From a virus: a DNA stretch of 55,701 bases. The first letter of the stretch is position 1. Each line of letters starts with the position of its first letter. This document shows, piece after piece, positions 31,305 to 51,444 of the stretch. The DNA is taken from positions 1 to 55,701 of IMG/VR virus record IMGVR_UViG_3300044675_003951. One strand, 5' to 3'. The notes beneath the pieces were generated by a model. It saw only the letters and a list, made by a program, of their open reading frames with translations. It made no database searches and was not told where the DNA came from. Position numbers and translations under genes: made by a program.

Positions 31305-31938
31305 TGTTGTATGTTTGCTGCGGCAAGGCGGCAAAGTTGGATATGATGCTACCTGGGTAGAAAAACTTCAACGTGGTGTGCAACGTAATCTAACATTGCC
31401 ACATCGATTTGTTTGTTTCAGCGATTGTGAAGTACCGTGTGAGCGAATAAAACTGTTGCCCGGAGATCATGGTTTCTGGAGCAAGATGCAATTGTTTCGG
31501 CCTAGCATATTGTCTGGACCAACCTTGTTTCTAGATCTTGACACAGTGATATGCAGCAACCTAGACCATGTGGTTGCTCAGTTACAAGATCAGAAGTTTG
31601 TTATGTGGCATGAAGCAGACAAGAACATACATTCAAGTGCTTTTATGTATTGGCAAGAAGATCACAGTTATTTGTGGAGCCTGTACCAAAGTCAGTCTTT
31701 AGCACACTGGCAATCCTTGTACAGCTCGCCGCCGCTGTATGGTGATCAAGCCATCATTAGCGAACACACCAATCACACTTTGTTGACTGACCACTGTCCA
31801 GCTGAATGGTTTCACATAGCATCACGCAAAGATGCTGACCTGGATCTTGGTGCAGTAAAAATATTGATGTTCAGAAAAGTATCTCAGAAACCCAGTACCA
31901 TGAGTCATCATCCATTGGTACAACAGCACTGGGTTTAA
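31297..31938 (+). CDS. Glycosyltransferase-like protein (GT-A, DxD)
   Basis: 213 residues. VVCLLRQGGKVGYDATWVEK, HRFVCFSDCEV, FWSKMQLFRP and LFLDLDTVICSNL (D-x-D near 88) follow the same order as in the gene at 26183-26920, and YGDQAIISEH is the matching acceptor block, so the two are paralogues. Third gene of the plus-strand cassette. Converges with the next minus-strand glycosyltransferase with a 4-nt overlap. Confidence 0.8.
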   Translation: MLNVVCLLRQGGKVGYDATWVEKLQRGVQRNLTLPHRFVCFSDCEVPCERIKLLPGDHGFWSKMQLFRPSILSGPTLFLDLDTVICSNLDHVVAQLQDQKFVMWHEADKNIHSSAFMYWQEDHSYLWSLYQSQSLAHWQSLYSSPPLYGDQAIISEHTNHTLLTDHCPAEWFHIASRKDADLDLGAVKILMFRKVSQKPSTMSHHPLVQQHWV

Positions 31939-32618
31939 ATTTGTTTTTGTAAACAGTATTCAGTTAAGATACGTTCTCTGTGCCATTCATTGCCTTGTGG
32001 AGTATCGGCAAACTCCTGAAAACATGGCGTGCCAAGTGTGTAGTGCAGTAACTTGGCGTCGGTATTTGGCCCGTATTCATCAGGCAACCAGTTCCATTCA
32101 GGCGGTAGTGAGCCAATTCGATTGTCGTCTATCCACGTGAAGCGGTGGAGCTCACTACCAGTGGAGCGTTGGACGAACTCGGGAGTAAGTCTCCGGTTAG
32201 GAAAGCTATTACAATTCCACAATATAACACTACTCCAATTTTTGCGAGGATAGTCTTCATTCTTTGCTCCTAGATATTTTACTGGCATACGAGTTTTGTA
32301 ATCATGCTTGACTACTTGTACATCTTTGTACTCATCCCGCAAGTTCCAGAGTTCTGTAATGTCTCCACGCACAATCATGTCACCATCTATAAAGATAGCA
32401 TGTCCAGAATACTCCATTAGATGTGGCACAAGAAAGCGTGTGTAGATAAAATGGTTTGATCCGTCTGTGTGTGTTTCTGCGTAGTCTCGGAACAGATTCA
32501 AGGCCACAGGCACAATAGCCACAGGTTGCGAACTGTTGCGTATGATACTGTTTACACAAGTATGATACGCAATGGCTTCTCTAGGGTCGTAACCCACGAA
32601 TACAGGAATTGGCTTCAT
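31935..32618 (-). CDS. Glycosyltransferase-like protein (GT8-type)
   Basis: 227 residues. IPVFVGYDPREAIAYHTCVN, TRFLVPHLMEYSGHAIFIDG, then the D-x-D of FIDGDMIVRGDI near residue 78, and SVILWNCNS with LLHYTLGTPCF at the end form a compact GT8-like enzyme. This type recurs in T4-like aquatic phages. It overlaps the cytidylyltransferase-cupin gene by 4 nt, so the two may work on one nucleotide-activated intermediate. Confidence 0.83.
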   Translation of the reverse strand: MKPIPVFVGYDPREAIAYHTCVNSIIRNSSQPVAIVPVALNLFRDYAETHTDGSNHFIYTRFLVPHLMEYSGHAIFIDGDMIVRGDITELWNLRDEYKDVQVVKHDYKTRMPVKYLGAKNEDYPRKNWSSVILWNCNSFPNRRLTPEFVQRSTGSELHRFTWIDDNRIGSLPPEWNWLPDEYGPNTDAKLLHYTLGTPCFQEFADTPQGNEWHRERILTEYCLQKQI

Positions 32619-33373
32619 TGGCGTTCAATGTCTTCTTCGACGCAGTTGTCGCCATACTGGATTTCAATCAGCTTTAGTGGCTGATCCGTTTCGTTGCACA
32701 GTTGATGCCATTCACGACATTCAATAAAGGTGTGTTCATGCACATCAAGATAACACTTGACATCACGGTCTGTACTTCTTTCATCCAGAGTATACACTGT
32801 GGCTGTGCCTTCGGCTACAAACCAAAACTCTTGTCTCTTATCATGGCGTTGCATGCTCAAACAGGTCTTGGGCATGACCGTGAGCTCTTTGAGCTTGGTG
32901 TTGGCACCTACTTCGTGCAGAACACGATAGTATCCCCAAGCACGACTAGTTTTAGGAGCTTTCCACTCTTGTAAGATCCAGCTGCTAGAATTCTTTTTAT
33001 CGTCTCCGCCTACGCCAAATTTAAAGATCACATCTTGCACAACCATTTCAGGAATGTTGACTGCCGTACGATCGCCGCCATTGGCAAAGATGATTTCGTG
33101 ATCGGGATGCAGTAGTTTTACTGCTTCTATTGCAGCACAACCGGATCCGTCTGAATCATCAAATTCAATCACTCTATCAACCACATGTAATGCTGCCACA
33201 ATTGCAGCACGTTCGGACCAGGGCATGAACGCTGATCCTTTTTTGCGCTGCAACCAAGCATCGCTGTTGAGGCCAACATACAACTTGTCGCCTAGTTCTC
33301 TAGCAGCGTTAAAATAGGCAATGTGTCCCGAGTGCAGCGGATCAAAACCCCCAGTTACTAATACAATTTTCAT
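32615..33373 (-). CDS. Cytidylyltransferase-cupin fusion (nucleotide-sugar or polyol synthesis)
   Basis: 252 residues from ATG (MKIVLVTGGFDPLHSGH); seven upstream codons are possible but contain the promoter. The N-terminal ~150 residues are a HxGH-type cytidylyltransferase like TagD/RfaE2: GGFDPLHSGHIAYFNAARE, GLNSDAWLQRKKG, then a modified C-terminal SSSWILQ. The C-terminal ~90 residues are a ManC/phosphomannose-isomerase-type cupin: LSMQRHDKRQEFWFVAEGTA and PLKLIEIQYGDNCVEEDI. The two parts do not usually occur in one protein, so it may both make and trim or epimerise an activated sugar. GTAAATA ends 5 nt before the ATG. Confidence 0.85.
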   Translation of the reverse strand: MKIVLVTGGFDPLHSGHIAYFNAARELGDKLYVGLNSDAWLQRKKGSAFMPWSERAAIVAALHVVDRVIEFDDSDGSGCAAIEAVKLLHPDHEIIFANGGDRTAVNIPEMVVQDVIFKFGVGGDDKKNSSSWILQEWKAPKTSRAWGYYRVLHEVGANTKLKELTVMPKTCLSMQRHDKRQEFWFVAEGTATVYTLDERSTDRDVKCYLDVHEHTFIECREWHQLCNETDQPLKLIEIQYGDNCVEEDIERQ

Positions 33374-33378
33374 ACTGG

Positions 33379-33385
33379 TATTTAC
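33379..33385 (-). promoter_or_regulatory. Late-type promoter element (GTAAATA), 5 nt before the ATG
   Basis: Minus-strand TGTAAATA, CCAGT, then the ATG at 33373. It lies between the cytidylyltransferase-cupin gene and the UvsY-like gene stop. Confidence 0.45.
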
Positions 33386-33397
33386 AGTGACCAAACA

Positions 33398-33850
33398 CTA
33401 GACTGAAATATCTTCCATGCCAGCAGTTCTGAGTTTTACAATGTGTCCCATTTGCCACTGTTTGGTTTCGAGACCCTTCATAATGCCCAGCCAACGATTA
33501 CGCAGAAATGCCACTTCGTTGATAATGGTTTCGTAGTCAATGACTTCGTCCTCACCATCCACATACTTTTCAGCATCTCTGCTGGTCAGTGCTCTGGGGT
33601 AATTTTCCAGGTATTTTTGAAAATGTTTTCTGCGTATCTTGCGCAGTTGAATATTGAGATAGTTTAACACTGCCTCAATTTCCTGCAACTGATAAAATCG
33701 CTGTTCAGTTGTGCCTGGCAGTTCTTTGAGATTGCGCTCTACTATTCCAGCAATAACACAATCTCGTTTGGCTGAAATTATTTCTGACTCGTAATGAGTT
33801 ATAAAGTCAGGTATCAGTGACAAGTCTGCAACTACACGATTATACCACAT
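33398..33850 (-). CDS. uvsY: Probable recombination mediator UvsY
   Basis: 150 residues, helical and basic. The C-terminal order SRDAEKYVDGEDEVIDYETI, LRNRWLGIMKGL, then GHIVKLRTAGMEDI parallels T4 UvsY, where an acidic linker, a conserved Trp and F-x-I-K-H-I...R-x-F-E-A-G come in the same order. UvsY loads UvsX onto gp32-coated ssDNA, and both partners are encoded within 7 kb. N-terminal similarity is weak. The start overlaps the radical SAM gene by 11 nt. Confidence 0.7.
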   Translation of the reverse strand: MWYNRVVADLSLIPDFITHYESEIISAKRDCVIAGIVERNLKELPGTTEQRFYQLQEIEAVLNYLNIQLRKIRRKHFQKYLENYPRALTSRDAEKYVDGEDEVIDYETIINEVAFLRNRWLGIMKGLETKQWQMGHIVKLRTAGMEDISV

Positions 33851-35090
33851 ATTCTAATTCTTTCACCAGCCAAGGAAACGTTGTACGCCAATTGAGATTC
33901 CTACGTCGGTCAAGTTCGTCAAGCACGACCCTGAGTTTGACCAATTGATCTTCTTGACGAATATTTTGATTACACTGCAATTGCAATGTCTTCATCATGT
34001 TGCGACTGCTTTGATGTTGCCATCCATCATCGGGCATTGCCTGTAGTATTTTTTCAAAATCTTCATCAAAAAATCCAGGGCCAAATATAATGGGATTAAA
34101 ATATTCAAAGCCAAGCACAGCCATATGATAGTGCCCTATCTTTCGTGCAGCCCTGTGTTGATTAATATATTCTAACAATGGTAACATTGACTTTATGCCC
34201 AACCCTGTAATGGTCTGATTGACATTGAGAGTAATCCAACGCTGTTCTGCCAGATATTCAAAATTTTGTTTCCATTGTTCAAGATTGAATCCGTAGCGTA
34301 TATACTCTTGTTCTGCACCCCAACAATCAATGCTGCATGTGATATCAAGACGTTTAATTTTACGTTGAACCAGCAAACTGCGCATCCGCTGCACAAAGTC
34401 AACTAATTTTGTCATTGACACTTTGAGATTGGTCACAATATTAAATTCTAATTCAGAATTTTGGTGTGCTTCTAGAAATTCCAAACATGTTTCAAATTGT
34501 GATTGAAAGAAAGGTTCTCCACCAAGTATGTGCAGTCTGCGGAGTTCTTGATAATTCAACTCGAGCCAGTCCCAAAACTCTGTCTGCAATTGATTCTTTT
34601 GAGGATGCTTTACTGCTGTGTTATCAATGATCACGCCATGTGATTCAAACTTGCCAAATTTTTCATTTTCTGTTTGAATTCGACTACTAAATCCGTCCCA
34701 ACAGTAGATGCAGCTCATGTTACATACATTATCAAGATACACTTCAACAATGCGCGGAGTAACACTGGTTGCTGCTAGATCAGTTTCAAGTTCGGGTGGT
34801 GTTAGATTAGGAATTTGCAACTGAAACTGTCTGTCACTTTGTCCGCCTGCACTTTCCATATTTTTACAATATTCACAACCTCCCGACGGCCACTTTCCGG
34901 CTAGCATTAGTTCACGGTCTGCGATCTTTTTGTTAGTGTTATGAAAATTTTTAAAATTATCTGGATCTACATTGCTACTATTAACTCTATGGCAAGAACT
35001 TGTTTCCCCGGTGTACAAAAACAAGGTGCTCCAGGTCCATTTAAGCTGACAAGCTGTATCTGTAACAATTGGAAAATACTTGTGGGACAT
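33840..35090 (-). CDS. Radical SAM enzyme, N-terminal four-cysteine (twitch/SPASM-like) type, copy 1
   Basis: 416 residues. The SAM-cluster motif C-x3-C-x2-C is CNMSCIYC (C123, C127, C130), with ILGGEPFF as the glycine loop that binds SAM. Before the barrel there are C14 and C33 (C-x18-C) and the pair C72/C75 (GGCEYC), suited to a further Fe-S cluster. It has the family signature EYIRYG followed by a Trp. It is the longest and most divergent of the five copies. Substrate unknown. It is coupled to the small acidic gene by a TAATG junction, in the uvsX unit. Confidence 0.9.
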   Translation of the reverse strand: MSHKYFPIVTDTACQLKWTWSTLFLYTGETSSCHRVNSSNVDPDNFKNFHNTNKKIADRELMLAGKWPSGGCEYCKNMESAGGQSDRQFQLQIPNLTPPELETDLAATSVTPRIVEVYLDNVCNMSCIYCWDGFSSRIQTENEKFGKFESHGVIIDNTAVKHPQKNQLQTEFWDWLELNYQELRRLHILGGEPFFQSQFETCLEFLEAHQNSELEFNIVTNLKVSMTKLVDFVQRMRSLLVQRKIKRLDITCSIDCWGAEQEYIRYGFNLEQWKQNFEYLAEQRWITLNVNQTITGLGIKSMLPLLEYINQHRAARKIGHYHMAVLGFEYFNPIIFGPGFFDEDFEKILQAMPDDGWQHQSSRNMMKTLQLQCNQNIRQEDQLVKLRVVLDELDRRRNLNWRTTFPWLVKELEYVV

Positions 35091-36419: not shown

Positions 36420-37574
36420 TTAGTTTCCTTCTCTTAATTTGTATAATTCAGTGAAAATTTTACTGCTGTCAATGTTTCTTCGTTGATCCATTGTTTTTAT
36501 CTTTTTAAAAGATCCTGCTAAATCTTTTTCAAACGGTTGTTGTATATAACTCAACATGTTTTTATAACTATCTTCAAGTAGATACCCAGGATGGTCAGCT
36601 ACTCTCTGTTGTATCTTGCTCTTTAAGAATTGTAACACATGTTCTGGCAAATGTCTAATATTTAGGTATTCTGGACTCAACAGTGCTCCAATTATAAAAC
36701 TGTTGTTGTGGAACCCCAGATGTTTCAAGTAGTCCACACAATCAAATACAGAACGGTAGTTTAACAAAAACCAAAGCATGTTGAAACTAATTTTATGATC
36801 AAGCTGTTTTATTTTTTCTAAATTTTCTAAAAAATCTTCCCAGCGGCCACCGTATCTTATGTATTCGAACTCATCAGCCATGGTTTCCACACTCACAGTC
36901 CAGTGTACATTGGGAAATTCACAAATTTTATCAAACACTCGAGTATGAGTTTTGCTTAGGTTGGTATTGATTCGAAGATTTACATTGGGATTGGTTTTTT
37001 GCAATAGTTCTAATAGTTCTAAATTTTCTTTCATCAACAGCGGTTCGCCGCCGGCCATGTACACATGTTTGAGTGTGGGCGCATGATCAAAGATATATTG
37101 TTTAAACCGTGCCAGCTGTTCTAAATTTGGACGAACTACCGGTTGATTTAATTCATTGGCCCAGCGACTGCTAAATTCAGAGCTACAATACACACAGGCA
37201 AAATTGCACAAATTGGTCCATCGTACATCAATGGTGTGTAAGTCGTGTTGATCAAGTTGATAAGTGCTTAGTGGTATTCGTTTGAGTTCTCTTATGTAAA
37301 AAATTCTATCACTGATGATATCAAACCCTGTTTTATCATCTTCAAGATCATAACAAGTGTGGCAAGTTTTTACTGGCTGGTTGTTCAACATGCGTTGTTG
37401 TGTGTCAAGATTAATATCACTGTGTAGAATTTCTTCAATGGTATTGTGTTTGAGGTTGCCTAGTTCTCCGGCACTGCGAATACAATTTTTTACTTTGCCG
37501 TCAACATTGTACATCAACCCAGTCCACGGCATGGGACAAAAATTCCGATTGGTTAACACATCTTTGGGCGTCAC
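36420..37574 (-). CDS. Radical SAM enzyme, N-terminal four-cysteine type, copy 2
   Basis: 384 residues. N-terminal module: C13 and C31 (FCPMPWTGLMYNVDGKVKNC, C-x17-C) plus C71/C74 (CHTC). SAM cluster motif CNFACVYC (C123, C127, C130), MAGGEPLL glycine loop, RINTNLSKT strand and the family signature FEYIRYGGRWEDF. The C-terminus is helical. The GTG start overlaps the SDR stop (GTGA). Lying between an SDR and uvsX, it may add a step to a modification pathway shared with the SDR and sulfotransferase; that is inference. Confidence 0.92.
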   Translation of the reverse strand: MTPKDVLTNRNFCPMPWTGLMYNVDGKVKNCIRSAGELGNLKHNTIEEILHSDINLDTQQRMLNNQPVKTCHTCYDLEDDKTGFDIISDRIFYIRELKRIPLSTYQLDQHDLHTIDVRWTNLCNFACVYCSSEFSSRWANELNQPVVRPNLEQLARFKQYIFDHAPTLKHVYMAGGEPLLMKENLELLELLQKTNPNVNLRINTNLSKTHTRVFDKICEFPNVHWTVSVETMADEFEYIRYGGRWEDFLENLEKIKQLDHKISFNMLWFLLNYRSVFDCVDYLKHLGFHNNSFIIGALLSPEYLNIRHLPEHVLQFLKSKIQQRVADHPGYLLEDSYKNMLSYIQQPFEKDLAGSFKKIKTMDQRRNIDSSKIFTELYKLREGN

Positions 37575-38110
37575 AGTGGTCCTAAAGAAATATCTGAAAT
37601 TCTAAGATTGTTATCAGTGGCCATGTTCAATAACGCCAACAAGGTCCTGGCCCAGTTGTCAACGTCAGCAGCCGGAGGCACTGTTTTGTCCGGGCTAGTG
37701 GCAATATTGCCAGGGCGAACTATGGTAATCTTTACACCAAGATCTCGATGTCGTATTTGCCCCACGGCTTCTTCTAATGTGACTTTTTGCAAACGATAAT
37801 GGTCCATATCTAGTCCAGGCAATGGTGATACAGGGTGCTGTGTCATCATGGTGCTGATTACAATGATTTGTTTCCTGGTGCCTTGCCATCGCTGTGCCAT
37901 TTCAAACAACAACTCAGTCTGTGCATATCCAGCCTGTGCGTTGTTAATAAAAACATCGCAAGGTTCAATCTGATCACAAATCTTAGGAGTATTACGAATG
38001 TTGTTGCCGTTGCGCTGACTTAGACCTATAATTTTGTGGCCACCAAGTTCATATTGTTCAGCAAGAGCCTGACCTATGCCTGCTGTGTGTCCAGTGATTG
38101 CTATTTTCAT
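37571..38110 (-). CDS. Short-chain dehydrogenase/reductase
   Basis: 179 residues, short for the family. Cofactor loop GHTAGIG (7-13), FINNAQAGY in place of NNAG, ISTMMTQ, catalytic YRLQK (Y-x3-K near 107-111) and RPGNIAT are all in order. Substrate unknown. SDRs in glycan clusters often reduce or epimerise nucleotide-sugars. It is coupled to radical SAM genes at both ends (ATGA and GTGA), so the three products probably act together. Confidence 0.88.
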   Translation of the reverse strand: MKIAITGHTAGIGQALAEQYELGGHKIIGLSQRNGNNIRNTPKICDQIEPCDVFINNAQAGYAQTELLFEMAQRWQGTRKQIIVISTMMTQHPVSPLPGLDMDHYRLQKVTLEEAVGQIRHRDLGVKITIVRPGNIATSPDKTVPPAADVDNWARTLLALLNMATDNNLRISDISLGPL

Positions 38111-39015
38111 ACTATGCCTCTTAGGTCTTTTTGCTGTTGTATGTAGTTGTGTCTTGCTACTAGGTCTTCATTATCCACTGACAGTTCATACGGTTGTTTG
38201 AGATATGCATAACTGTGATCTATGCCATGTTCCTGTGCAAAAGACTGTATGTTAGGCAGATCATCTACATTTAATACACTAACTGTGGTCCATAAATTTA
38301 ACTTAACAGGCATTTTCTTGTATGTCATTAAATTGTTGTAGAATGTATCCCACTTGATGGGCCAACGCACAAATTCGTGAACTGGTCCGATACCGTCACA
38401 ACTTACTGTGACTGTTACCTCTATTCCAAGATTGGCAATATCAGTCAGCTCAGATAGTACCACGTTGCAATTTGTATTAAGTCTGAGTGTTTTTAAGTTT
38501 GGCGGAAGATTTGCAAGTAGTCGTTTGTAATTTTTACTGTAGCTGGGCTCGCCGCCGTTGATGTCCAAATGCACAATACGATGTTGCGGAAGATTCCAAA
38601 ATTGATTGCTGTTATTTACTATGGGAAAAATTTTCCCAGCAAGTGCTCCAATACGAGTACTACATTCTGGACCACATGTTTGACAAGCAGCATTGCATAT
38701 ATTGTCCAGGACACCACCTATCTGCAAGTAATCTCTTTGTGTTTCGTTTTGATCAACTGCTAGTGCGTAGGTTCTTATACTGCTGAGATTTTGTTGCTCG
38801 ATTTCCTGGCATCGACTACATTCCTTGGGCCAAATGTTGTTGTTGAATTGTTCTTTTATATTGTGCAGCCAGGGACTAGAATCCATTGCTTCTATCGAAC
38901 TAAATTGTGCTGGAGAAATCATGTGCCCGCAACGACTTATTGTTCCGTTGGAATTGAATCTTACAAAATGATCAAGTCTTGGGCAATGCATCAAATATTC
39001 TATATGTTCTTTCAA
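38107..39015 (-). CDS. Radical SAM enzyme, N-terminal four-cysteine type, copy 3
   Basis: 302 residues, the shortest of the five. N-terminal C11 and C29 (C-x17-C) and C66/C69 (CSRC). SAM cluster motif CNAACQTC (C107, C111, C114) with further cysteine C118 (GPEC) nearby. DINGGEPSYSKN is the glycine loop. The family signature is HEFVRWPIKWDTF, with Pro in place of Gly. It overlaps the sulfotransferase gene by 44 nt and the SDR by 4 nt. Confidence 0.9.
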   Translation of the reverse strand: MKEHIEYLMHCPRLDHFVRFNSNGTISRCGHMISPAQFSSIEAMDSSPWLHNIKEQFNNNIWPKECSRCQEIEQQNLSSIRTYALAVDQNETQRDYLQIGGVLDNICNAACQTCGPECSTRIGALAGKIFPIVNNSNQFWNLPQHRIVHLDINGGEPSYSKNYKRLLANLPPNLKTLRLNTNCNVVLSELTDIANLGIEVTVTVSCDGIGPVHEFVRWPIKWDTFYNNLMTYKKMPVKLNLWTTVSVLNVDDLPNIQSFAQEHGIDHSYAYLKQPYELSVDNEDLVARHNYIQQQKDLRGIV

Positions 39016-39628
39016 AAATTAACTCGTACAAATCGTGATGAGTATTTTTAATATCGACCACTAGATCAACAAATGTTGTTTGTGTTCCAATACGTTCAAT
39101 CAACAGTTGATCCAATAAAAAATATAACTCAAGTTGGCCCCATGGAAACTTTTGTATGCTTGTTAAAAATTCTTCAGTAGGAGCAGCTATGTCGGCACGA
39201 TTTTTGCGATGAGTTAATTGATCAATATCATTGATGTGTTGAAATTTTAACGGGGCCCTGCTATAACGAGACAAGTTAATTAACCAAAAAAATTGTGGTG
39301 CATAATGTCTATTTAAAAACAAGTACTTTTCTACAAAAAACAAGATTGTTCTAGTGTCAAGATCTTTATAATCTCTATGACAATGCTGTAAAAAAGTGTT
39401 TACACCGCTGATAAATCTTTCTTTTGGATCTCGAAGAAAAACTGTTATAGGAGTTTGAATCTTAGATATCTCTGATTCGTTTATTATTTTCCAACCTAGA
39501 TCAACTGCTGATTCAGTCAGTGATGAACTACCATTTTTAAAAATTGGATAGACAAATACCTGCGAGGGTATTATTTCTAACACCTCGCAGGTATTTGGAA
39601 AAATAGTTTTATCTATCTCACCAAACAT
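38972..39628 (-). CDS. Sulfotransferase-like protein
   Basis: 218 residues from ATG (MFGEIDKTIFPN); an apparent earlier TTG is not needed. VYPIFKNGSSSL near residues 27-38 is the 5' phosphosulfate loop of PAPS-dependent carbohydrate sulfotransferases, and VFLRDPKERFISGVN near 62-76 is the 3' phosphate loop. Members transfer sulfate from PAPS to sugars. It starts 3 nt after the gp32 stop and overlaps radical SAM copy 3, so it should be transcribed with the ssDNA-binding protein. Confidence 0.85.
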   Translation of the reverse strand: MFGEIDKTIFPNTCEVLEIIPSQVFVYPIFKNGSSSLTESAVDLGWKIINESEISKIQTPITVFLRDPKERFISGVNTFLQHCHRDYKDLDTRTILFFVEKYLFLNRHYAPQFFWLINLSRYSRAPLKFQHINDIDQLTHRKNRADIAAPTEEFLTSIQKFPWGQLELYFLLDQLLIERIGTQTTFVDLVVDIKNTHHDLYELIFERTYRIFDALPKT

Positions 39629-39631
39629 CAA

Positions 39632-43152: not shown

Positions 43153-43159
43153 TATTTAG
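43153..43159 (-). promoter_or_regulatory. T4-late-type promoter (CTAAATA) overlapping the terL stop codon
   Basis: Minus-strand CGCTAAATA: TAA is the terminase stop. CACTATC and the ATG at 43145 follow, a 7-nt gap that predicts a near-leaderless message. Confidence 0.6.
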
Positions 43160-44745
43160 CGCATGATGCTGATGAACGGCAGCGGTTCTATAATGTTGTC
43201 CGAATGATCTTTAAGGTGCGAGTCCAGGTCAGAATGGTAGGTTTGCAGCAGCATTAACATGCGTGTGACCAGCAAACTGGCCATCACAAGATCATCTGTT
43301 TCGCCTGGTTTAGCAGCATAGCTGGTGCCATTGGCCACAAAACTTTTGAGTTCTGTCAGCAAGGGTTTGCTGTAGATCTTCATGCGACCGGATTCTATTA
43401 GGATTTTCATTTTGCTGCAAGCGCTGATCTTGCTTTTGTTAGTGGTAGTAAATCCCTTGCGGATTCGGCGCCCGCTGCTGCCCTGCACACTGTTGTCGCT
43501 TAGAAAATAACCTGGAATATTCTCTTCTCCATACTCGTTGATGCTGATCAGTGCTGCTTCGCCAAGTGTGTTGTTTTCCACAGAATAATAAATGCTTTTG
43601 TTGTCTTTGGTAACTGCATGTATTTCTTTCACAATGTCTGCTAGAATTTTAACTTGTGTGGGCACATCAGTTTTGTTGTGACACCACTCTGCCACTTGCT
43701 CAGTAGTGTCTGCTTCAAACACCTGTATAGCTGCGGGGTCGCTGCCTGTGCCCAAACTGGGATCCAGTGCAACAATATACATTTTGTCTTTGCGTATGGG
43801 TTTGTACCAGCGTACTTGCCCAGATTTGTGCGTGGGTTCTATACCTTCGAGCTCTAGCAATTTAAGTGGAGAGATTAATGTTTCGTCGTTGATAACAAAA
43901 TCACAATCCATTTCTCGACGAAAACGTTCTTCGCCCAGTTGAGATCTTTGTTCTGCTGCCCAGACTTCGTCTCGGTCAGGGTGCTCACGCCAGAACGCAC
44001 GAAATGCTTTGAAACCGTTGATACCAAGACCATTGGCTCGTTGATTTCCAAATTCATCTTGAGTCTTTAAAGCACCTTTCCAGATGTAGGCAAATTGATC
44101 CTCATCTGAATTTGGGGTCGAAGTAATAATAGCTTTACCACCAGTGCTGAGTGTGGGTGTGATTGACGTCCAAAACTCTTTGGCAATGGTGGGTCGCACG
44201 AATGCAAACTCGTCTAGGTACAGCAGCGTAATACTCATACCGCGACCTGTGTTCTCCGTAGTGGTTTGACTCACAATGCGTGATCCATTATCAAACTCCA
44301 AGGAACCTTTGTTGTAACTGGTGGCACCTGCTCTGATATGATTGGGACACAATTCATATGCATAACGAATACGCTGCATGATTTCTTGTGCCCCCAGGTA
44401 TTTGTGTGCTGCTATCAGGATGGTTGCATCTGGCACAAACATAGCATACCATAACAAGTAACCCGCAGCACTGGTTGACTTGCCTGTTTGTCGTGGCATC
44501 AAGCTGATACTAAAACGATTTTGGTGATAGTTGTTGATCAAGCGCTTTTGATACTCAAAAGGATGGTACAACATCTTGCCCCGAACAGGATGTTGGATGT
44601 AAAAGAAGTTGTCCATAAAGTGCATGGGTCCAGTAACTGGATCTGCACATTTGGCAAAGTCTTCGAGTTCGGACTCAGAGTAAGTTTCTCTACGGTGAGG
44701 TGCTTTTACAAGCACTGTATCAAGTGTATTTTTCGCGCCAATCAT
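43156..44745 (-). CDS. 17: Terminase large subunit, T4 gp17 type
   Basis: ATP-driven DNA packaging motor and headful nuclease. 529 residues: Walker A SLMPRQTGKST near 81-91, Walker B LLYLDEFAF near 183-191, coupling motif AIITSTPNS, and RNase H-type nuclease domain with VALDPSLGTGSDPAA, SVENNTLGEAAL and GETDDLVMA (the last acidic site). Order and length match T4-like gp17. The probable small terminase gp16 is about 10.5 kb away rather than adjacent. The end is AT-rich and merges with a late promoter. Confidence 0.95.
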   Translation of the reverse strand: MIGAKNTLDTVLVKAPHRRETYSESELEDFAKCADPVTGPMHFMDNFFYIQHPVRGKMLYHPFEYQKRLINNYHQNRFSISLMPRQTGKSTSAAGYLLWYAMFVPDATILIAAHKYLGAQEIMQRIRYAYELCPNHIRAGATSYNKGSLEFDNGSRIVSQTTTENTGRGMSITLLYLDEFAFVRPTIAKEFWTSITPTLSTGGKAIITSTPNSDEDQFAYIWKGALKTQDEFGNQRANGLGINGFKAFRAFWREHPDRDEVWAAEQRSQLGEERFRREMDCDFVINDETLISPLKLLELEGIEPTHKSGQVRWYKPIRKDKMYIVALDPSLGTGSDPAAIQVFEADTTEQVAEWCHNKTDVPTQVKILADIVKEIHAVTKDNKSIYYSVENNTLGEAALISINEYGEENIPGYFLSDNSVQGSSGRRIRKGFTTTNKSKISACSKMKILIESGRMKIYSKPLLTELKSFVANGTSYAAKPGETDDLVMASLLVTRMLMLLQTYHSDLDSHLKDHSDNIIEPLPFISIMR

Positions 44746-45475
44746 TCAGCATTTTCTCCGCAATTCGTTTATGTATGATAGGGCCGCCGTGCATGAAGTC
44801 ACGTGCATATCCTATTTCATCTCGACTCCAAGACATGTGATACTGTGCTCGCTCAATCAAGCATGGCACATTATTTTCAGCACACAGTTGTTTGATAGCT
44901 AGACAATTTTTTAATTGATTGAGTCTTGTGTTTTCATTGTTCAAGAGCCAGTGTTTTATAAACGTATCATTACTAGAAAAAATTGCCGAATTAGTTTCAG
45001 GCATTATCACATCTGCTGGCAAGTGGTAGACATTTTTGTCTAGTAATATCTCAAATCGATTGTCAGGCGGTGCCAGCATCGCAACAATTTTTGGCTGCTG
45101 CTGAGGTAGCCAGTACTCAAGCAATCTGAAACAGGTGTCTGAGCTATTGCCTCCCCAGGCCAGGTTAACAACTCTTACTCCAAGCTCATTTCCCAACAAG
45201 GTAGGCCAAATAGATTCAATAGGTAACCCTATTCCCAGTGTAAAGCTGCAACCCAACGCAATCATACATGGTGTATCATCAAACTCGTCACACCGAAATC
45301 CTTTGCTGTTGATTTTGTAGGTAATGGCTCCGGGCTTGTCCCAACCCATTTGTGCAAAATATTTCTGATGCTCAGGATCTTGCATGAGTTGTTGAAAATT
45401 TTCTTTGGTATCAGTTGGCAACCATTCTTGCACCGTGTTTGCATGATATGTTCCAAAATGCCAAGGTGCCGTCAT
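44720..45475 (-). CDS. SGNH-hydrolase-like protein
   Basis: 251 residues from ATG (MTAPWHFGTYHANTVQEW), chosen because the ATGA junction with radical SAM copy 4 fits better than an earlier start. Block I IALGCSFTLGIGLP carries the serine, NLAWGGNSSDTC is block III, and the C-terminal YARDFMHGGPIIH supplies D-x-x-H. All four expected residues are present. It may de-acylate or transfer acyl groups on a surface glycan. Third SGNH-like protein of the window, and the best conserved. Confidence 0.8.
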   Translation of the reverse strand: MTAPWHFGTYHANTVQEWLPTDTKENFQQLMQDPEHQKYFAQMGWDKPGAITYKINSKGFRCDEFDDTPCMIALGCSFTLGIGLPIESIWPTLLGNELGVRVVNLAWGGNSSDTCFRLLEYWLPQQQPKIVAMLAPPDNRFEILLDKNVYHLPADVIMPETNSAIFSSNDTFIKHWLLNNENTRLNQLKNCLAIKQLCAENNVPCLIERAQYHMSWSRDEIGYARDFMHGGPIIHKRIAEKMLNDWREKYT

Positions 45476-46632
45476 TTCAGTCTCCGTGCAAGATCTGGCC
45501 ACAGGTCTTCAAACTTTTTGGATTTGTTTAACTCTAGTTCAATATTGCGGTGCCAGGCTAGTGTGTCAGGTGTGTACTCGTTAACATTAAATATGTAACT
45601 GTTGTCTAGTAATTGCGCACGGTATCGTTGTAGTGTGCTGACGGCCAGGTTATGTTCGTTTTTTTGCCCCCATCGCTGTGTGACTCTGTCTATTTCGTCA
45701 ACAGCCAGTTGCCTTATTTCGGGACTGAGCCGGCGAACGTCGAGATCCCAGGGGTTTGTGAGTTCGCACCAGAACAAGTTTAGATCGTTGGCTTCGCAGA
45801 ACTCATAGTATTCCACAAGATCAAATGCACAATAGATACTGTACGCAGGATGTGCTTGCACATGCTGGCCATCTGCTTTTAACAAGTCAAGGTTGGTCTT
45901 GAACTGAATCCAGTTAGCGCCATCACGTACATATTCAAAACGATCAGCAGTGCAGTTATCAAAGCTCACTTGCCAGTCCACACTGGGCCAGGTCTTGAGT
46001 TCGTTGTAAATGTCATTGTTGGCCAAGTCCATGCTGAGATTGGTTGTGACCATTACTCGAACTTTTTGCGAGTCCAAGCAACGTAACATATCCAACAGGC
46101 CTTTTTGTAATAGCGGTTCGCCACCACCAAGTACTAGTCCTTGTAGACTTTTACCTTTGGCTTGCATCAGTTCTAGAATACTTTGTTGATCGTTACGCAC
46201 ATACTTGATGGGTATTTTTTTAACACTTTGCCATGCGGTTGATGTTTCAGGATTGCAATACACACAACTTAGATTACACAAATTGCTCCAATTGACTACA
46301 AAATGCTGCGGCTCAAACCACGTGATGTCTTGATCAATTGCGTCTATGGTTGCTGCATCACAATGACGTTGTGTTCTTGCACTCACCCCTGTGGTGTCTT
46401 CGCTTTGTTTGCATAATTTACAAGTGTCGTGCCATTGACCTTGTTGCATAGCTTGTTTGATAGAAGTCAGTTCAGCACCGTTAATAATCTCGTGAATAGT
46501 ATTTTGTTTGATATTACCAATGGCATCCACGGCATGCATGCAAGGACTAACACGGCCTGTTTGATCAATGTTGAAACTGGTCCAGGGTGCTGAACAAAAT
46601 GTAGGACTTTGAGTTATTGCGGAGTTAGCCAT
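45472..46632 (-). CDS. Radical SAM enzyme, N-terminal four-cysteine type, copy 4
   Basis: 386 residues. N-terminal C13 and C31 (FCSAPWTSFNIDQTGRVSPC, C-x17-C), C71/C74 (CKLC). SAM cluster motif CNLSCVYC (C119, C123, C126), GGGEPLL glycine loop, TTNLSMDLAN strand, family signature FEYVRDGANWIQF. The module spacing is the same as in copies 2 and 3. It overlaps the 2OG oxygenase by 19 nt and the SGNH-like gene by 4 nt, so it forms a coupled block with them. Confidence 0.92.
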   Translation of the reverse strand: MANSAITQSPTFCSAPWTSFNIDQTGRVSPCMHAVDAIGNIKQNTIHEIINGAELTSIKQAMQQGQWHDTCKLCKQSEDTTGVSARTQRHCDAATIDAIDQDITWFEPQHFVVNWSNLCNLSCVYCNPETSTAWQSVKKIPIKYVRNDQQSILELMQAKGKSLQGLVLGGGEPLLQKGLLDMLRCLDSQKVRVMVTTNLSMDLANNDIYNELKTWPSVDWQVSFDNCTADRFEYVRDGANWIQFKTNLDLLKADGQHVQAHPAYSIYCAFDLVEYYEFCEANDLNLFWCELTNPWDLDVRRLSPEIRQLAVDEIDRVTQRWGQKNEHNLAVSTLQRYRAQLLDNSYIFNVNEYTPDTLAWHRNIELELNKSKKFEDLWPDLARRLK

Positions 46633-47171
46633 GTGTATGATGTCAATCTAAAAGTGTTTTCGGGCACAGGTGTCAGCATGGCGTGCCATAATAATTTTCT
46701 AAATCCTGTGCTGTCGGCTTGATTGATCATTATGTAACCTGTGTTGGGTTCAAAGGGTGTTTGGTATCTTAGAGATGCTGGATCTTTGTGCCAGTAAAAA
46801 CCTGTGCCAAGATCTTTGTTACCGATCCAGTTTATCTGCATACTGCCGGGCATCTCGCCATCAGTGTGCATGCTGCAAGTAAATCCTGGTTCATCAATCC
46901 AGAATGCAGTGCCTTGATAATGTGCTATTTTTGTTCCTGTTGCTGCTTCAATTGCTGGCCATATCGATGTTGAACACACTTGGTTCCATTCGTCCAGCCA
47001 AGGTATTGCAGCATCATTGATACGGCGGCGGGGCCATAGTGCTTGCCCTTCCTGACGTTGCCACGGCAAGTCTAACCAAGGTGTACTTAGCACTTTTTGT
47101 ACCAGAAGGTCGGGCATTGCTTGCGCTACACGAAACAAGTTGTTGTCAGAATCTACTGCTGTTATTTGCAT
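46614..47171 (-). CDS. 2-oxoglutarate/Fe(II)-dependent oxygenase-like protein
   Basis: 185 residues. The metal-binding triad is present: CSMHTDGEMPG gives H102 and D104, and RKLLWHAMLTPV gives the distal H163. TFRLTSYTWL gives the 2OG-binding arginine R175. The fold order agrees with the double-stranded beta-helix prolyl-hydroxylase type, such as those common in T4-like aquatic phages. The substrate may be a protein residue or a sugar. It lies between radical SAM copies 4 and 5 with overlapping ends, so the enzymes are probably used in one pathway. Confidence 0.82.
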   Translation of the reverse strand: MQITAVDSDNNLFRVAQAMPDLLVQKVLSTPWLDLPWQRQEGQALWPRRRINDAAIPWLDEWNQVCSTSIWPAIEAATGTKIAHYQGTAFWIDEPGFTCSMHTDGEMPGSMQINWIGNKDLGTGFYWHKDPASLRYQTPFEPNTGYIMINQADSTGFRKLLWHAMLTPVPENTFRLTSYTWLTPQ

Positions 47172-48304
47172 AGATGTTCCAGCTCAGGCCATAACTGAAC
47201 AAAGTTTCCTACTTGATCAGTGTGATATTGATTTTCAATTTTTTGAATGTGTTGTTTGAATTTGTGTTCTATTCCAGGTGATGCCTCAGTTACTGCTTGA
47301 TACATTGTTAGTGAATTATCAAAGAATGCTTTTTCAGCAGTAGTTGCTTGCCCAGACAGATAGAACCTGTGAATTTCTTCCGCGGCTGCTGCTGCAACTT
47401 CAGGTCCGTGCAACAATGGATCTAGGTAGTCAGGCTGAAACAAATTCTGCCACAGCACAGTAACACCCAAGTCTTGAGCAAATTGTCTAAATTCACAAAC
47501 ACGAGTGGCATTGTAGATATTGTACACTGCATGTATGCCGCCCCAGTGTCCTTGTGTCTGCATTAGATTTTTGATTGTGGCTAAATTCTTTTGTATCAGG
47601 TTCCAGCTTGCACCATGGCGCACATATTCAAGGCGCAGGCCCACATTGTCAAAGCTCATACTCCAACCCACACGTTTTCGCTGTACTAGTTTTTGAAATA
47701 TCTTGTTGGTTTCTAGGTCCACACTCATGTTGGTGATCAGAGTCACAATAGCATCTTCGGGGATCACATCCAGCAGTCGATTATTCTCAGGCAACAGCAG
47801 CGGCTCACCACCTACTAGTGCAACTTCATGTATGTGTTCGCGGTGCTGTTCAATAAAGTCACATACCTGATCATAATAGGAACGGGTTCCTGACACAAAA
47901 GGTACTTTTTTCAAGCTGGCCCATTTTGAACTGCAAGCAGGACCACAGTAGTTACAACTCAAGTTGCAAGTGGTATTCCAACGCACATCTACAATCACAG
48001 GATAGTGATATTTGGTGCCGGCAGCGGCGTAATCAAAATTGGGGTTTACGCGGTTGTGCCAGGCACGTTCTGAATCTGCTCCAAAGCGTTCGGCTTGCAC
48101 ACAGTTGCTACAATAGGCGTGTGGCTTGCCTTGTGCCAGATCAGCTCGTATCTTTTGCATGAGATCGCTGTTGAGAATTTGCTCAATGCTTTGGCTGTTC
48201 AAGTTGCCCAGCATGTTGGGATTGCCAGCACAACAGGTTTTGACATTGCCTTGTGGATTGATATGCAGGCCTCGCCAGGGGGCTGCACAGTAAAAATTGC
48301 TCAT
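47162..48304 (-). CDS. Radical SAM enzyme, N-terminal four-cysteine type, copy 5
   Basis: 380 residues. N-terminal C6 and C24 (YCAAPWRGLHINPQGNVKTC, C-x17-C) with an extra C25, C65/C68 (CSNC). SAM cluster motif CNLSCNYC (C113, C117, C120), followed by GPAC as in copy 3, LVGGEPLLLPENN glycine loop, TLITNMSVDLE, family signature LEYVRHGASWNLI. First gene of the coupled block 47.2-44.7 kb. GTAAATA ends only 4 nt before the ATG, so its message may be leaderless. Confidence 0.92.
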   Translation of the reverse strand: MSNFYCAAPWRGLHINPQGNVKTCCAGNPNMLGNLNSQSIEQILNSDLMQKIRADLAQGKPHAYCSNCVQAERFGADSERAWHNRVNPNFDYAAAGTKYHYPVIVDVRWNTTCNLSCNYCGPACSSKWASLKKVPFVSGTRSYYDQVCDFIEQHREHIHEVALVGGEPLLLPENNRLLDVIPEDAIVTLITNMSVDLETNKIFQKLVQRKRVGWSMSFDNVGLRLEYVRHGASWNLIQKNLATIKNLMQTQGHWGGIHAVYNIYNATRVCEFRQFAQDLGVTVLWQNLFQPDYLDPLLHGPEVAAAAAEEIHRFYLSGQATTAEKAFFDNSLTMYQAVTEASPGIEHKFKQHIQKIENQYHTDQVGNFVQLWPELEHLCK

Positions 48305-48336: not shown

Positions 48337-48774
48337 TTAATTACACCAACTAGTTTTGGCTTCGCCGTAGTATTCACGTGCAAATCCATTTTGTATCAGC
48401 ATGGCTCTGAGACTCTGCCCATTTAACAGCACATCACCCAGCACACGACCACCATACTTGTCCCAGTCCATGAGAACAATTTGACGTTTGGTTGCAGCGT
48501 TGATCTGAGCTTTGGTAAATGCTGTAGCAGCTTCGCCGCGAGCAGCTTCTGACGGACAGGCTGCACGATGTCCCTTTTCAGGTGTGTCTACGCCAAACAC
48601 TCGAATGCTGAGTTCTTGTTTGAGTGGTGCAGGTAACCAAGTGGCCGCAATACCTACAGTATCACCGTCTATGACTCTGGTGATCACAGCGTCATAGGTC
48701 ACACCTGGTTTTTGTCGGGGTTGTGCGAAGGCCAGCACAGGCACAATCAGCAAGAGTAGAAAGAGTTTTTTCAT
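48337..48774 (-). CDS. Exported staphylococcal-nuclease-like (thermonuclease) protein
   Basis: 145 residues. A signal peptide is evident: MKKLFLLLLIVPVLAFAQ, cleavage near residue 17-18. The SNase domain follows with VITRVIDGDTVGI, IRVFGVDTPEKGHR and MDWDKYGGRVLGDVLLNGQ, containing the catalytic Arg, Asp, Glu and second Arg positions. This family cleaves DNA and RNA with calcium. An exported version would act in the periplasm or medium. It lies between the radical SAM block and a fibre gene. SxxC near the end (SWCN) could form a disulfide with the upstream Cys. Confidence 0.9.
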   Translation of the reverse strand: MKKLFLLLLIVPVLAFAQPRQKPGVTYDAVITRVIDGDTVGIAATWLPAPLKQELSIRVFGVDTPEKGHRAACPSEAARGEAATAFTKAQINAATKRQIVLMDWDKYGGRVLGDVLLNGQSLRAMLIQNGFAREYYGEAKTSWCN

Positions 48775-48783
48775 GTCGAAATT

Positions 48784-50658
48784 TCAAGTTGTGATCACAA
48801 TAATCTCACCTGTAGTGGGATTGTAGTACATGGGAAAGAATCCTGCAGGCACCGAGCCTGATGTAGGTGCGGCAAAAGTCACACTGGCCACTGCTCGCAC
48901 AGGTTTCACTGTGAATGTGTTGGCAGTAGTTTGATCTAGTGCCGAGCCAGTGGCGTTCAGGATGATTGAGTTGTTGGCTTGTGAGGTTTGACCAGCCTGA
49001 CGGCCAACAGCTACTGAAAACTCACCTTGTGAGGTTTGACCAGCCTGACGGCCAACGGCCACTGCTGAGTTGCCTTGTGTGTTTGCACCAGTACTGGCAC
49101 CAATGGCCACTGCGCTGAGGCTTTGTGAGCTATACCCGGCCTGAATACCAATGGCTACCGACTGTGTGTCTTGTGAACTAAAACCAGCCTGAAAGCCAAT
49201 GGCCACTGACGACCCCACTTGATTGGTCGAACCTGCCTGTTGGCCAATAGCAATATTATTTGGACCTTGTGCAGTTTGGCCAGCTTGCAGTCCAATTGCT
49301 ATTGATTGAATGCCTTGTGCGTTACCGGCACTAGTACCAATGGCCACTGTGTTTGCGCCCTGCCCCTGATCACCAGCATTAGATCCAATTGCTATAGCAT
49401 AGGTTCCTTGGCTTGAGTTACCAGCAAAGTTTCCAATGGCTATTGCACTGTTACCTTGTGAGGTCATACCAGCACTGATTCCAACTGCTACTGTTCGCTC
49501 ACCCTGTGAGGAATTACCAGCATACGCTCCTATGGCCACTGCTGAAGGACCTTGATTGGAGAATCCAGCTCGTTGTCCCACTGCCACTGATTGGATACCT
49601 TGTGTGGTTTGTCCGGCGGTGTCTCCAACTGCTACAGAATACGCACCTTGTGTGGTTTCCCCAGCTTGCCTACCAACAGCAACTGATTGAGTGCCTTGTG
49701 TGATTGCGCCAGCACCAACGCCAATGGCCACTGTAACATTGCCTTGTGCAGACAATCCAGCATACGCTCCAATGGCTACTGATTGGATGCCTTGTGTGGT
49801 TTGGCCAGCGTATAATCCAATGGCAACTGATTGAGTACCTTGAGTATTTTCGCCTGCACCGTGGCCAATGGCCACTGCGTCATCACCTTGCAAAGCAACG
49901 CCGCCACCAGCATTTTGTCCGATTGCCACTGCTGTTGATCCTTGAGTGGCACCGGCATTATCACCAATTGCAACACTTTGATTACCTTGACTGGTCAGTC
50001 CAGCACGATTACCAATGGCCACAGAACTTATTCCTTGACCGGTATAACCAGCATTATTACCAATGGCCACTGCACTGACGCTTTGTGTTTCGTTGCCGGC
50101 ATATTGACCTATGGCCACAGAATTGGCACCTTGACTGGATTGGCCACTACTGAGCCCAATGGCCACTGATCGAATACCTTGTGCAGTTAGTGCAGTAAAC
50201 GGGCCAATGCCCACTCCGTACTCGCCTTGAGCATCAAACCCAGCTGAAACACCAATGGCCACAGCACTAGAGCCTTGAGTGGTGTTGCCGCCAGCATTTT
50301 GACCAATTGAGATTGCTGTCGCAAGTTGACCACCTTGGCCAGCATTTTTACCAATTGCTACTGCGTCTGCGTCCTGGCCGTCAAATCCAGCATTTTGACC
50401 CAGGGCTATTTCTGTAGGCCCTGATGCACCATCTTTGTTGCTCAACAGTGCCCAGGTTGTTGCACCGCCTGGTGTGGCCACTGCTGTGAGATCGCCTAGT
50501 GCGTTGCCCACATACACAATGCTTGTGGCCTGATCCACCACAAGTTCTCCGGGTCTGGCATTTCCGTCGTATTCGGCCAAGGTAACCTGGGCGTTGTCTT
50601 TCATTGCGGCACGTGAAATGCCGGTGATGTTGTCGTATGGTGGTGGGGGATTGGCCAT
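48784..50658 (-). CDS. Tail fibre protein with YadA-like head repeats
   Basis: 624 residues. Residues 1-75 are an N-terminal attachment region (DNITGISRAAMKDNAQVTLA, GELVVDQATSIVYVGNALGD) similar to fibre modules elsewhere here. From about residue 85 to 545 there are about 30 repeats of roughly 15 residues of the form S-V-A-I-G-x-x-A-G-x-x-x-Q-G, as in the left-handed beta-roll of YadA-type trimeric adhesins. The C-terminal ~65 residues are a tip domain. Late promoter CTAAATA 24-30 nt upstream. It likely forms a trimer. Confidence 0.88.
   Translation of the reverse strand: MANPPPPYDNITGISRAAMKDNAQVTLAEYDGNARPGELVVDQATSIVYVGNALGDLTAVATPGGATTWALLSNKDGASGPTEIALGQNAGFDGQDADAVAIGKNAGQGGQLATAISIGQNAGGNTTQGSSAVAIGVSAGFDAQGEYGVGIGPFTALTAQGIRSVAIGLSSGQSSQGANSVAIGQYAGNETQSVSAVAIGNNAGYTGQGISSVAIGNRAGLTSQGNQSVAIGDNAGATQGSTAVAIGQNAGGGVALQGDDAVAIGHGAGENTQGTQSVAIGLYAGQTTQGIQSVAIGAYAGLSAQGNVTVAIGVGAGAITQGTQSVAVGRQAGETTQGAYSVAVGDTAGQTTQGIQSVAVGQRAGFSNQGPSAVAIGAYAGNSSQGERTVAVGISAGMTSQGNSAIAIGNFAGNSSQGTYAIAIGSNAGDQGQGANTVAIGTSAGNAQGIQSIAIGLQAGQTAQGPNNIAIGQQAGSTNQVGSSVAIGFQAGFSSQDTQSVAIGIQAGYSSQSLSAVAIGASTGANTQGNSAVAVGRQAGQTSQGEFSVAVGRQAGQTSQANNSIILNATGSALDQTTANTFTVKPVRAVASVTFAAPTSGSVPAGFFPMYYNPTTGEIIVITT
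48990..50410 (-). repeat. About 30 tandem 45-bp repeats coding the YadA-like beta-roll
   Basis: Period close to 45 bp, with most differences at third positions and at three variable residues per unit. The last two units (near 48983-49070) are almost identical in DNA sequence, which points to recent duplication. Homologous recombination between units could shorten or lengthen the fibre. Confidence 0.8.
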
Positions 50659-50695: not shown

Positions 50696-51076
50696 TCAAT
50701 AACCTTTGAAGGGCTTGACAGGGCTCTGTCGATTTACTAATGCGGGCTCTAGGCTGTTGGGAGTGCTTATCTGTACTTTTTTAACAGGCAATCCAGCCAT
50801 TTTCAATGCGTGATCAATAGCTGGAGCAACATTGGCATTGAATCCAGCAATCACAGCATCTTCGCCAAATGCTGCTTGGGCGCTCCATTCAGGCAACTTG
50901 TTGGTAAGGCCATCTGTTCCAGCGTCACTTCTTGCACGGGCTATTGCCACGCCCAGTCTATATATTTGATAAGGATCACTGGACTTTACCCCGGGCAAGG
51001 TAAAAACATGATTCATAGGATCTCCTTGTTCAGGAGGCAATTTTGTTTCTTCTGTGATAAACTCACGGGCTCTCAT
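50696..51076 (-). CDS. Candidate internal head protein with capsid-targeting leader, A
   Basis: 126 residues. N-terminus MRAREFITEE is close to the T4 capsid-targeting sequence form M-K-x-x-Q-E-F-I-x-E-A, which directs internal proteins into the prohead before cleavage by gp21. The C-terminus SPVKPFKGY is shared in form with the next gene. The body is helical with VAIARARSDAGTDGLTNKLP. The start overlaps protein B by 4 nt. No enzymatic motif is visible. Confidence 0.72.
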   Translation of the reverse strand: MRAREFITEETKLPPEQGDPMNHVFTLPGVKSSDPYQIYRLGVAIARARSDAGTDGLTNKLPEWSAQAAFGEDAVIAGFNANVAPAIDHALKMAGLPVKKVQISTPNSLEPALVNRQSPVKPFKGY

Positions 51077-51444
51077 CTGGGATAGCCTTTGAATGCCTGC
51101 ATGGGGCTGGTGGTGTTCACCGCAGGATGTTCCTCAGACTTTAGATCACCGTGATTCAAGTCTTCGTGATGACTGCCCACAGCTTGAAATGCTTTTGTCA
51201 GCATGTCTTGTTCTTGTTGAGTATACGGCACAGCAATATTGTTGCGGCCTGCCCATGATTCGCCATCAACATCAGGAACAAAGGTGCCGTCGGTTGAGGC
51301 CACAGCCATCATGATACGATTGAGTTCATACACGCGGTCAGCAAACTGCTGATCACGAAACTTGTTTAAGCCCACTGTGGCGTTTTGATTGCGTTTGCTA
51401 ATCTGGCCAATGTGAGCTTCTGCAATAAACTCCTGGGCTCGCAT
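51073..51444 (-). CDS. Candidate internal head protein with capsid-targeting leader, B
   Basis: 123 residues. N-terminus MRAQEFIAEAHIGQI is still nearer to T4 internal protein leaders (E-F-I-A-E-A). The C-terminus SPMQAFKGYPR is like protein A. The body between is unrelated at first sight, with a helical part (FADRVYELNRIMMAVASTDG). The shared ends with different middles suggest the ends are sorting signals. It overlaps the next gene by 1 nt. Confidence 0.72.
   Translation of the reverse strand: MRAQEFIAEAHIGQISKRNQNATVGLNKFRDQQFADRVYELNRIMMAVASTDGTFVPDVDGESWAGRNNIAVPYTQQEQDMLTKAFQAVGSHHEDLNHGDLKSEEHPAVNTTSPMQAFKGYPR

Follow-up and report, generated by a model that had tools for sequence, protein, structure and literature searches.

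Within IMG/VR virus record IMGVR_UViG_3300044675_003951, whose 55,701 nucleotides (nt) were analysed in full and are called the window here, four genes of the minus strand, read from 48304 to 44720, lie between a thermonuclease-like gene (SNase) and the gene for the terminase large subunit. In reading order, they encode a radical S-adenosylmethionine (SAM) protein with an N-terminal twitch domain (rSAM_A), a 2-oxoglutarate (2OG)-Fe(II) oxygenase (OG), a second radical SAM protein of the same type (rSAM_B), and a protein resembling SGNH/GDSL hydrolases (SGNH); coordinates are collected in Table 1. The window derives from an uncultured large T4-like phage, and its terminase shares 54% identity with the terminases of Pseudomonas phage PA5oct and related large T4-like phages. 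The position and identities given to the four genes by an earlier, sequence-only reading are borne out by family scores, conserved residues, and the modelled fold of OG.

Both radical SAM proteins exceed the curated cut-off of NF033640, the NCBIfam N_Twi_rSAM family (170 bits, whole-protein score), with 224.7 bits for rSAM_A and 195.5 bits for rSAM_B. The CxxxCxxC motif of rSAM_A (C113/C117/C120) and its N-terminal C6, C24, C25, C65, and C68 are invariant in 37 relatives; among the relatives of rSAM_B, C119/C123/C126 of the CxxxCxxC motif and C71/C74 are invariant, and C13/C31 are nearly so. Mean column identity in the relatives' alignments is 78% for rSAM_A, 68% for rSAM_B, 67% for OG, and 48% for SGNH. 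No cellular relatives of rSAM_A or OG were found in 84,980 GTDB genomes. In 50,697 phage records, relatives of rSAM_A occur only in the records of K566, a cultured Vibrio phage, and K567, at 22% identity, and none were found for OG, SGNH, or rSAM_C, a radical SAM protein encoded elsewhere in the window.

OG matched no family in Pfam, NCBIfam, or PHROGs, and a PDB sequence search with an OG profile gave zero matches. Its residues H102-T-D104 and H163, which form the HxD...H iron triad, and R175, the 2OG-binding arginine, are invariant in 26 relatives. Compared with the PDB, the AlphaFold model (pLDDT, the predicted local distance difference test, 94.1) gives 230 matches at E ≤ 1e-3, with template modelling (TM) scores up to 0.66, and the best 50 of these 230 are 2OG-Fe(II)/AlkB-type oxygenases. 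The fold neighbours include OkaE, PolD, and prolyl-4-hydroxylase, as well as lysyl hydroxylases and AlkB; among viral models, there is one close match, an uncharacterised protein of an uncultured phage, and the next are cyanophage 2OG oxygenases. On the model, OG is a member of the 2OG-Fe(II) oxygenase superfamily with a double-stranded β-helix fold and a predicted oxygenase activity.

The SGNH protein of the window matches Pfam Lipase_GDSL_2 weakly (E 0.004, 18 bits vs. a gathering cut-off of 32.9), and it has a PDB match to a lysophospholipase L1-like esterase (0.0024). The assignment is confirmed, at the level of sequence, by its relatives: 21 of 38 match Lipase_GDSL_2 at E ≤ 0.1 (best 5e-7), and S77 of the GCS nucleophile motif, G109 of block II, and D226 and H229 of the DxxH motif are invariant in all 38. 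Given that the stretch of block III (GxND) holds no invariant Asn in the 38 sequences and has an invariant Arg140 there instead, we call the protein SGNH-like, and its activity may be altered. None of the four block proteins has an obvious signal peptide, and they are therefore assumed to be cytoplasmic.

A search of IMG/VR with OG and terminase queries yielded 119 loci in which the terminase start was usable; the slot before the terminase gene was complete in 86 of them, and 64 were non-redundant. Writing A, O, B, and S for the four genes in order, the slots of these 64 loci contain A (14 loci), none (12), AOBS (11), AS (9), AOS (8), and AO (6), while ABS, ASO, ASS, and S were found once each. 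Thus rSAM_A, present at 51 of the 64 loci, is a near-constant anchor, downstream of which OG, rSAM_B, and SGNH are gained and lost. The order A-O-B-S-terminase is kept in all but one locus (ASO), and SGNH is duplicated once (ASS). Neither OG nor rSAM_B occurs at any locus without rSAM_A, and all 12 loci with rSAM_B also carry SGNH (Fisher p = 1.4e-4). The neighbourhood comparison that the sequence-only reading had proposed finds the order nearly always kept, but the set itself is not fixed, as only 11 of the 64 loci have all four genes.

The minimum number of changes on the terminase tree is 4 for A, 13 for O, 12 for B, and 18 for S, and the presence of S and B looks random on both the terminase and the rSAM_A trees. 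The picture differs on the trees of the accessory genes. Among loci with SGNH, the presence of OG requires 3 changes on the SGNH tree, which includes two long-branch rows (shuffled mean 9.8, with 0 of 300 shuffles as low), vs. 8 on the terminase tree for the same loci (39 of 300 as low). The presence of rSAM_B requires 6 changes on the OG tree, where 7 of 300 shuffles are as low, vs. 241 of 300 on the terminase tree. On the terminase tree, there were too few events for independent-pair tests. Since rSAM_B is always accompanied by SGNH, and the SGNH subtype tracks the presence of OG and not the phage lineage, the accessories behave as one cassette.

These data bear on the idea that the genes are coincidental cargo, i.e., that a tolerated insertion point before the terminase gene gathers unrelated single genes with no shared pathway. 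The random-looking presence of S and B fits this idea, as do the scattering of N-terminal-twitch (N_Twi) radical SAM genes as single copies, with 5 to 13 matches per genome, and the generic nature of overlaps in the window described below. However, the fixed order, the constant pairing of rSAM_B with SGNH, and an SGNH subtype that follows OG would be unexpected for independent cargo. The test of OG on the SGNH tree makes unconnected cargo less likely, and we consider this explanation improbable.

The genes of the block overlap by 10 nt (rSAM_A/OG), 19 nt (OG/rSAM_B), and 4 nt (rSAM_B/SGNH, with SGNH read from its ATG), in agreement with the 4–19 nt reported earlier. A further overlap of 26 nt, between SGNH and the terminase large subunit gene, had been missed; the coupled chain runs on into the terminase. 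The notion that overlap proves a pathway was rejected, as 28 of the 56 same-strand neighbour pairs of the window overlap. Because overlap is the norm here, it does not mark out the four genes as a pathway. In the relatives, overlap occurs at A>O in 24 of 25 junctions, A>S in 9 of 11, A>terminase in 8 of 14, O>B in 11 of 11, O>S in 4 of 8, O>terminase in 5 of 7, B>S in 8 of 12, and S>terminase in 29 of 31. Hence, overlap is maintained: where a gene of the series is absent, it is usually re-made with whichever gene comes next. By contrast, the border between SNase and rSAM_A shows overlap at 0 of 38 junctions; in the window, a gap of 32 nt separates SNase from the start of rSAM_A, and all later junctions overlap. 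Since overlaps are re-made downstream of rSAM_A and none is found at its upstream border, the unit extends from rSAM_A to the terminase and is not a closed four-gene block, so a fixed stoichiometry is not implied. The earlier proposal that the four products are made in fixed proportion is thus not upheld: the chain enters the terminase, overlaps are common in the window, and in most relatives between one and three of the genes are missing. What survives of the small modification pathway proposed at the same time is the behaviour of the genes as a module (rSAM_B with SGNH, SGNH following OG, order kept), and not their coupling as a four-gene definition.

Table 1. Features of the window discussed in the text, in positions of the window.
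Feature	Position	Strand	Description	Evidence
SNase	48337..48774	-	Thermonuclease-like, apparent signal peptide; upstream border of the island	SNase 4e-11, phrog_452 8.5e-19
rSAM_A	47162..48304	-	N-terminal-twitch radical SAM protein, 380 aa; conserved anchor	NF033640 2e-66, SPASM 3e-12
OG	46614..47171	-	2OG-Fe(II) oxygenase, 185 aa	Conserved residues, AlphaFold fold
rSAM_B	45472..46632	-	Second N-terminal-twitch radical SAM protein, 386 aa; accessory	NF033640 1.5e-57
SGNH	44720..45475	-	SGNH/GDSL-hydrolase-like, 251 aa from ATG 45475, 260 aa from GTG 45502; accessory	
Terminase large subunit	43156..44745	-		Terminase_6N 1e-13, phrog_36964 1.4e-118
rSAM_E	38107..39015	-	Divergent radical SAM relative; no Pfam match	phrog_14086 5e-13, match to rSAM_A query 2e-13
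Epimerase-like, truncated	37571-38110		In second cassette	Start of epimerase domain, 2.3e-5
rSAM_C	36420..37574	-	N_Twi radical SAM; separate second cassette	NF033640 6e-78
rSAM_D	33840..35090	-	N_Twi radical SAM; by HldE-like nucleotidyltransferase/cupin and GT8 genes	NF033640 3e-65
HldE-like nucleotidyltransferase-cupin fusion	32615-33394		Beside rSAM_D	CTP_transf_like 2e-12, MannoseP_isomer 5e-20
GT8 gene	31935-32618		Near rSAM_D	Glyco_transf_8

The surroundings of the slot show features of their own. In many relatives, the SNase gene adjoins a counterpart of window positions 48784-50658, which contain many AVAIG.xAG repeats and have tail-spike and virion-protein PHROG matches. In a relative without rSAM_A (L107), a predicted secreted protein resembling DNA/RNA non-specific endonucleases (7403-8236 of L107) replaces SNase at the same position. 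Two adjacent small proteins of the window, at 50696-51076 and 51073-51444, share their ends (N-terminus MRAxEFIxE..., C-terminus ...FKGY), are conserved in relatives including L107, and are possibly head-targeted internal proteins.

Matches to the N_Twi radical SAM family number five in the window and 5–13 in each large relative, where the weakest matches per record probably represent radical SAM proteins of other kinds and four of the records (G001, G003, G006, and G007) seem to come from a single phage. A second radical SAM cassette of the window (36420-39631), made up of an unknown protein (38972-39631), rSAM_E, the truncated epimerase-like gene, and rSAM_C, is inherited en bloc in a subset of the relatives, between the genes of a single-stranded DNA (ssDNA)-binding protein and RecA/UvsX. 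The fusion gene beside rSAM_D, which combines an HldE-like nucleotidyltransferase with a mannose-6-phosphate-isomerase cupin and adjoins the GT8 gene, is about 70% conserved in relatives. In relative G004, an open reading frame (ORF) of 508 aa (L139:3668-5191) apparently joins an N_Twi radical SAM domain to an additional region at its N-terminus.

What does the cassette act upon? We favour, with about even confidence, a modular tailoring cassette whose most likely substrate would be a glycan or a lipopolysaccharide (LPS)/nucleotide-sugar precursor. rSAM_A would alter a small or saccharide-type substrate by radical chemistry, OG would then hydroxylate or otherwise oxidise the product, rSAM_B would carry out a further radical step, and SGNH would remove or transfer an acyl group. 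The genes would be read with a late packaging gene and the proteins would act in the cytoplasm late in infection, so that the decoration of host envelopes or virion glycans might differ from one phage variant to the next.

Genes for glycosyltransferases, nucleotide-sugar enzymes, or lipid A enzymes lie outside the block of the window; they are found by rSAM_D, in the slot of one relative (L020), and in phage K566. In the L020 slot, a protein of the NAD-dependent sugar epimerase/GDP_Man_Dehyd type is also encoded before the terminase gene, as is a second GDSL-type ORF, recognised by eye. The epimerase-like gene of the rSAM_C/rSAM_E cassette adds to this sugar context. Relative G002 has a large tandem radical SAM cluster that also encodes a GDSL protein and a carbamoyltransferase. 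Pfam gave no name to several large accessory proteins of such clusters in the relatives; their reading as glycosyltransferases was made by eye and is not counted. In K566, overlapping genes run N_Twi radical SAM, GT8, N_Twi, N_Twi, GT4-like; on its other strand, N_Twi and GT8 genes are followed, a few kb off, by PagP (the depositor's name) and LpxC (Pfam 1.3e-40). By analogy, K566 offers the strongest outside support for the glycan/LPS reading. The sugar or lipid substrate suggested earlier is thus favoured by context, i.e., by the L020 epimerase and the glycosyltransferases and LpxC of K566, and stands as a probable rather than a demonstrated substrate.

Several observations weigh against this reading. 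Sugar genes lie within 3 kb of N_Twi genes in 5 of 16 cases in the five large relatives, vs. 2.3 expected, which is suggestive but not significant (p about 0.06), and many other N_Twi genes are solitary among replication, ClpP, or RNR-type genes (by eye), with no adjoining glycan gene. The sequence of rSAM_A is, in a tree test, uncorrelated with which accessories are present; being blind to the accessory that follows, rSAM_A may act independently of them. The joint travel of OG and SGNH could reflect physical linkage in one slot, and the locus frequencies are biased towards OG, as 41 loci were found with OG as the query. Finally, the structural model of rSAM_A is modest (pLDDT 79), and its best matches, SkfB and anSME at TM about 0.39, are, as far as the model goes, enzymes that modify peptides or proteins.

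This last point leads to the main rival, in which the enzymes would modify a phage or host protein made late (by hydroxylation, crosslinking, or epimerisation), with the substrate encoded elsewhere. Peptides or proteins are often the substrates of those SPASM/twitch radical SAM enzymes whose function is known (review PMC11002830), prolyl and lysyl hydroxylases are among the fold neighbours of OG, and the island is coupled to the terminase with virion genes around it. In addition, rSAM_A is nearly invariant, as though its substrate were constant. On the other hand, at a TM of about 0.4 with so modest a model, the matches of rSAM_A are non-specific. The two small conserved neighbours described above are still present in L107, which lacks rSAM_A, and an esterase-like SGNH protein together with a sugar epimerase in the slot fit poorly with a protein substrate. 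As the sequence-only reading had it, the block leaves no room for a precursor peptide, and none of the type that matures into a ribosomally synthesised and post-translationally modified peptide (RiPP) was found beside a radical SAM gene at the window locus; this holds locally, and a peptide or protein substrate encoded elsewhere is still compatible with it. We consider protein modification rather unlikely. A more specific form, in which the terminase-coupled island would carry out a RiPP-like maturation of a virion or packaging protein and vary its decoration by swapping the oxygenase, the second radical SAM protein, and the esterase, seems to us doubtful.

The least supported alternative is the hypermodification of nucleotides or DNA, in which the enzymes would build or decorate modified bases that the adjacent terminase packages. 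Both 2OG and radical SAM enzymes are known in base modification, terminase and ssDNA-binding genes are nearby, and AlkB is among the fold neighbours of OG. The thymidylate-synthase family is the usual entry to 5-hydroxymethyl pyrimidines, but no gene of this family was found in the five large relative records, which may be incomplete, and the cassette proteins matched no nucleic-acid-binding family in Pfam or NCBIfam. We regard this alternative as very unlikely.

With 5–13 matches per genome to a single radical SAM family, such phages invest heavily in that chemistry. The natural series of states in one fixed slot (none, A, A with SGNH, A with the oxygenase, and all four) provides a testable comparison of cassette products. 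Should a surface glycan turn out to be the product, radical chemistry would be a phage route to disguising or remodelling host envelopes; should it be a protein, the island would represent a new type of virion maturation.

Radical SAM chemistry on sugars and aminocyclitols is known from BtrN, which has a twitch domain, DesII, and AprD4. DesII and AprD4 rank low among the fold matches of rSAM_A and share radical SAM chemistry with it. However, the twitch of the window proteins is N-terminal, and these enzymes were not recovered by sequence, so membership of their groups is not proposed.

Among phages, the K566 cluster (OZ196521) likewise has several N_Twi (NF033640) proteins encoded by overlapping genes, which in K566 stand beside lipid A and glycosyltransferase genes. 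It differs in that its radical SAM proteins are about 22% identical to rSAM_A and that no relative of OG or SGNH was found in the phage collection. The T4-like environmental genome TARA_ERS488813_N000010, described in 2017, has 12 radical SAM genes reported under Fe-S metabolism (PMC5332604). The resemblance is one of about a dozen radical SAM genes in one T4-like phage; the passage on these genes mentions neither a tailoring island nor nested gene content, nor a partner oxygenase or SGNH protein.

No description of a terminase-side radical SAM/oxygenase island came up in the literature searches. A close parallel is that of the pelagimyophages, for which radical SAM cassettes gained and lost in a glycosyltransferase-rich host recognition cluster were reported in 2020 (PMC7029224); the authors proposed that the glycosyltransferases modify the O-chain against co-infection. 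As in the window, these are radical SAM units that come and go in T4-like phages. The pelagimyophage region is variable and rich in glycosyltransferase and LPS genes, whereas the window cassette has a fixed place, flanked by SNase and terminase, with a 2OG oxygenase, an SGNH protein, and a near-constant anchor gene. Radical SAM cassettes of T4-like phages are, therefore, already known, and the terminase-side island with its oxygenase and SGNH protein is a variant of them.

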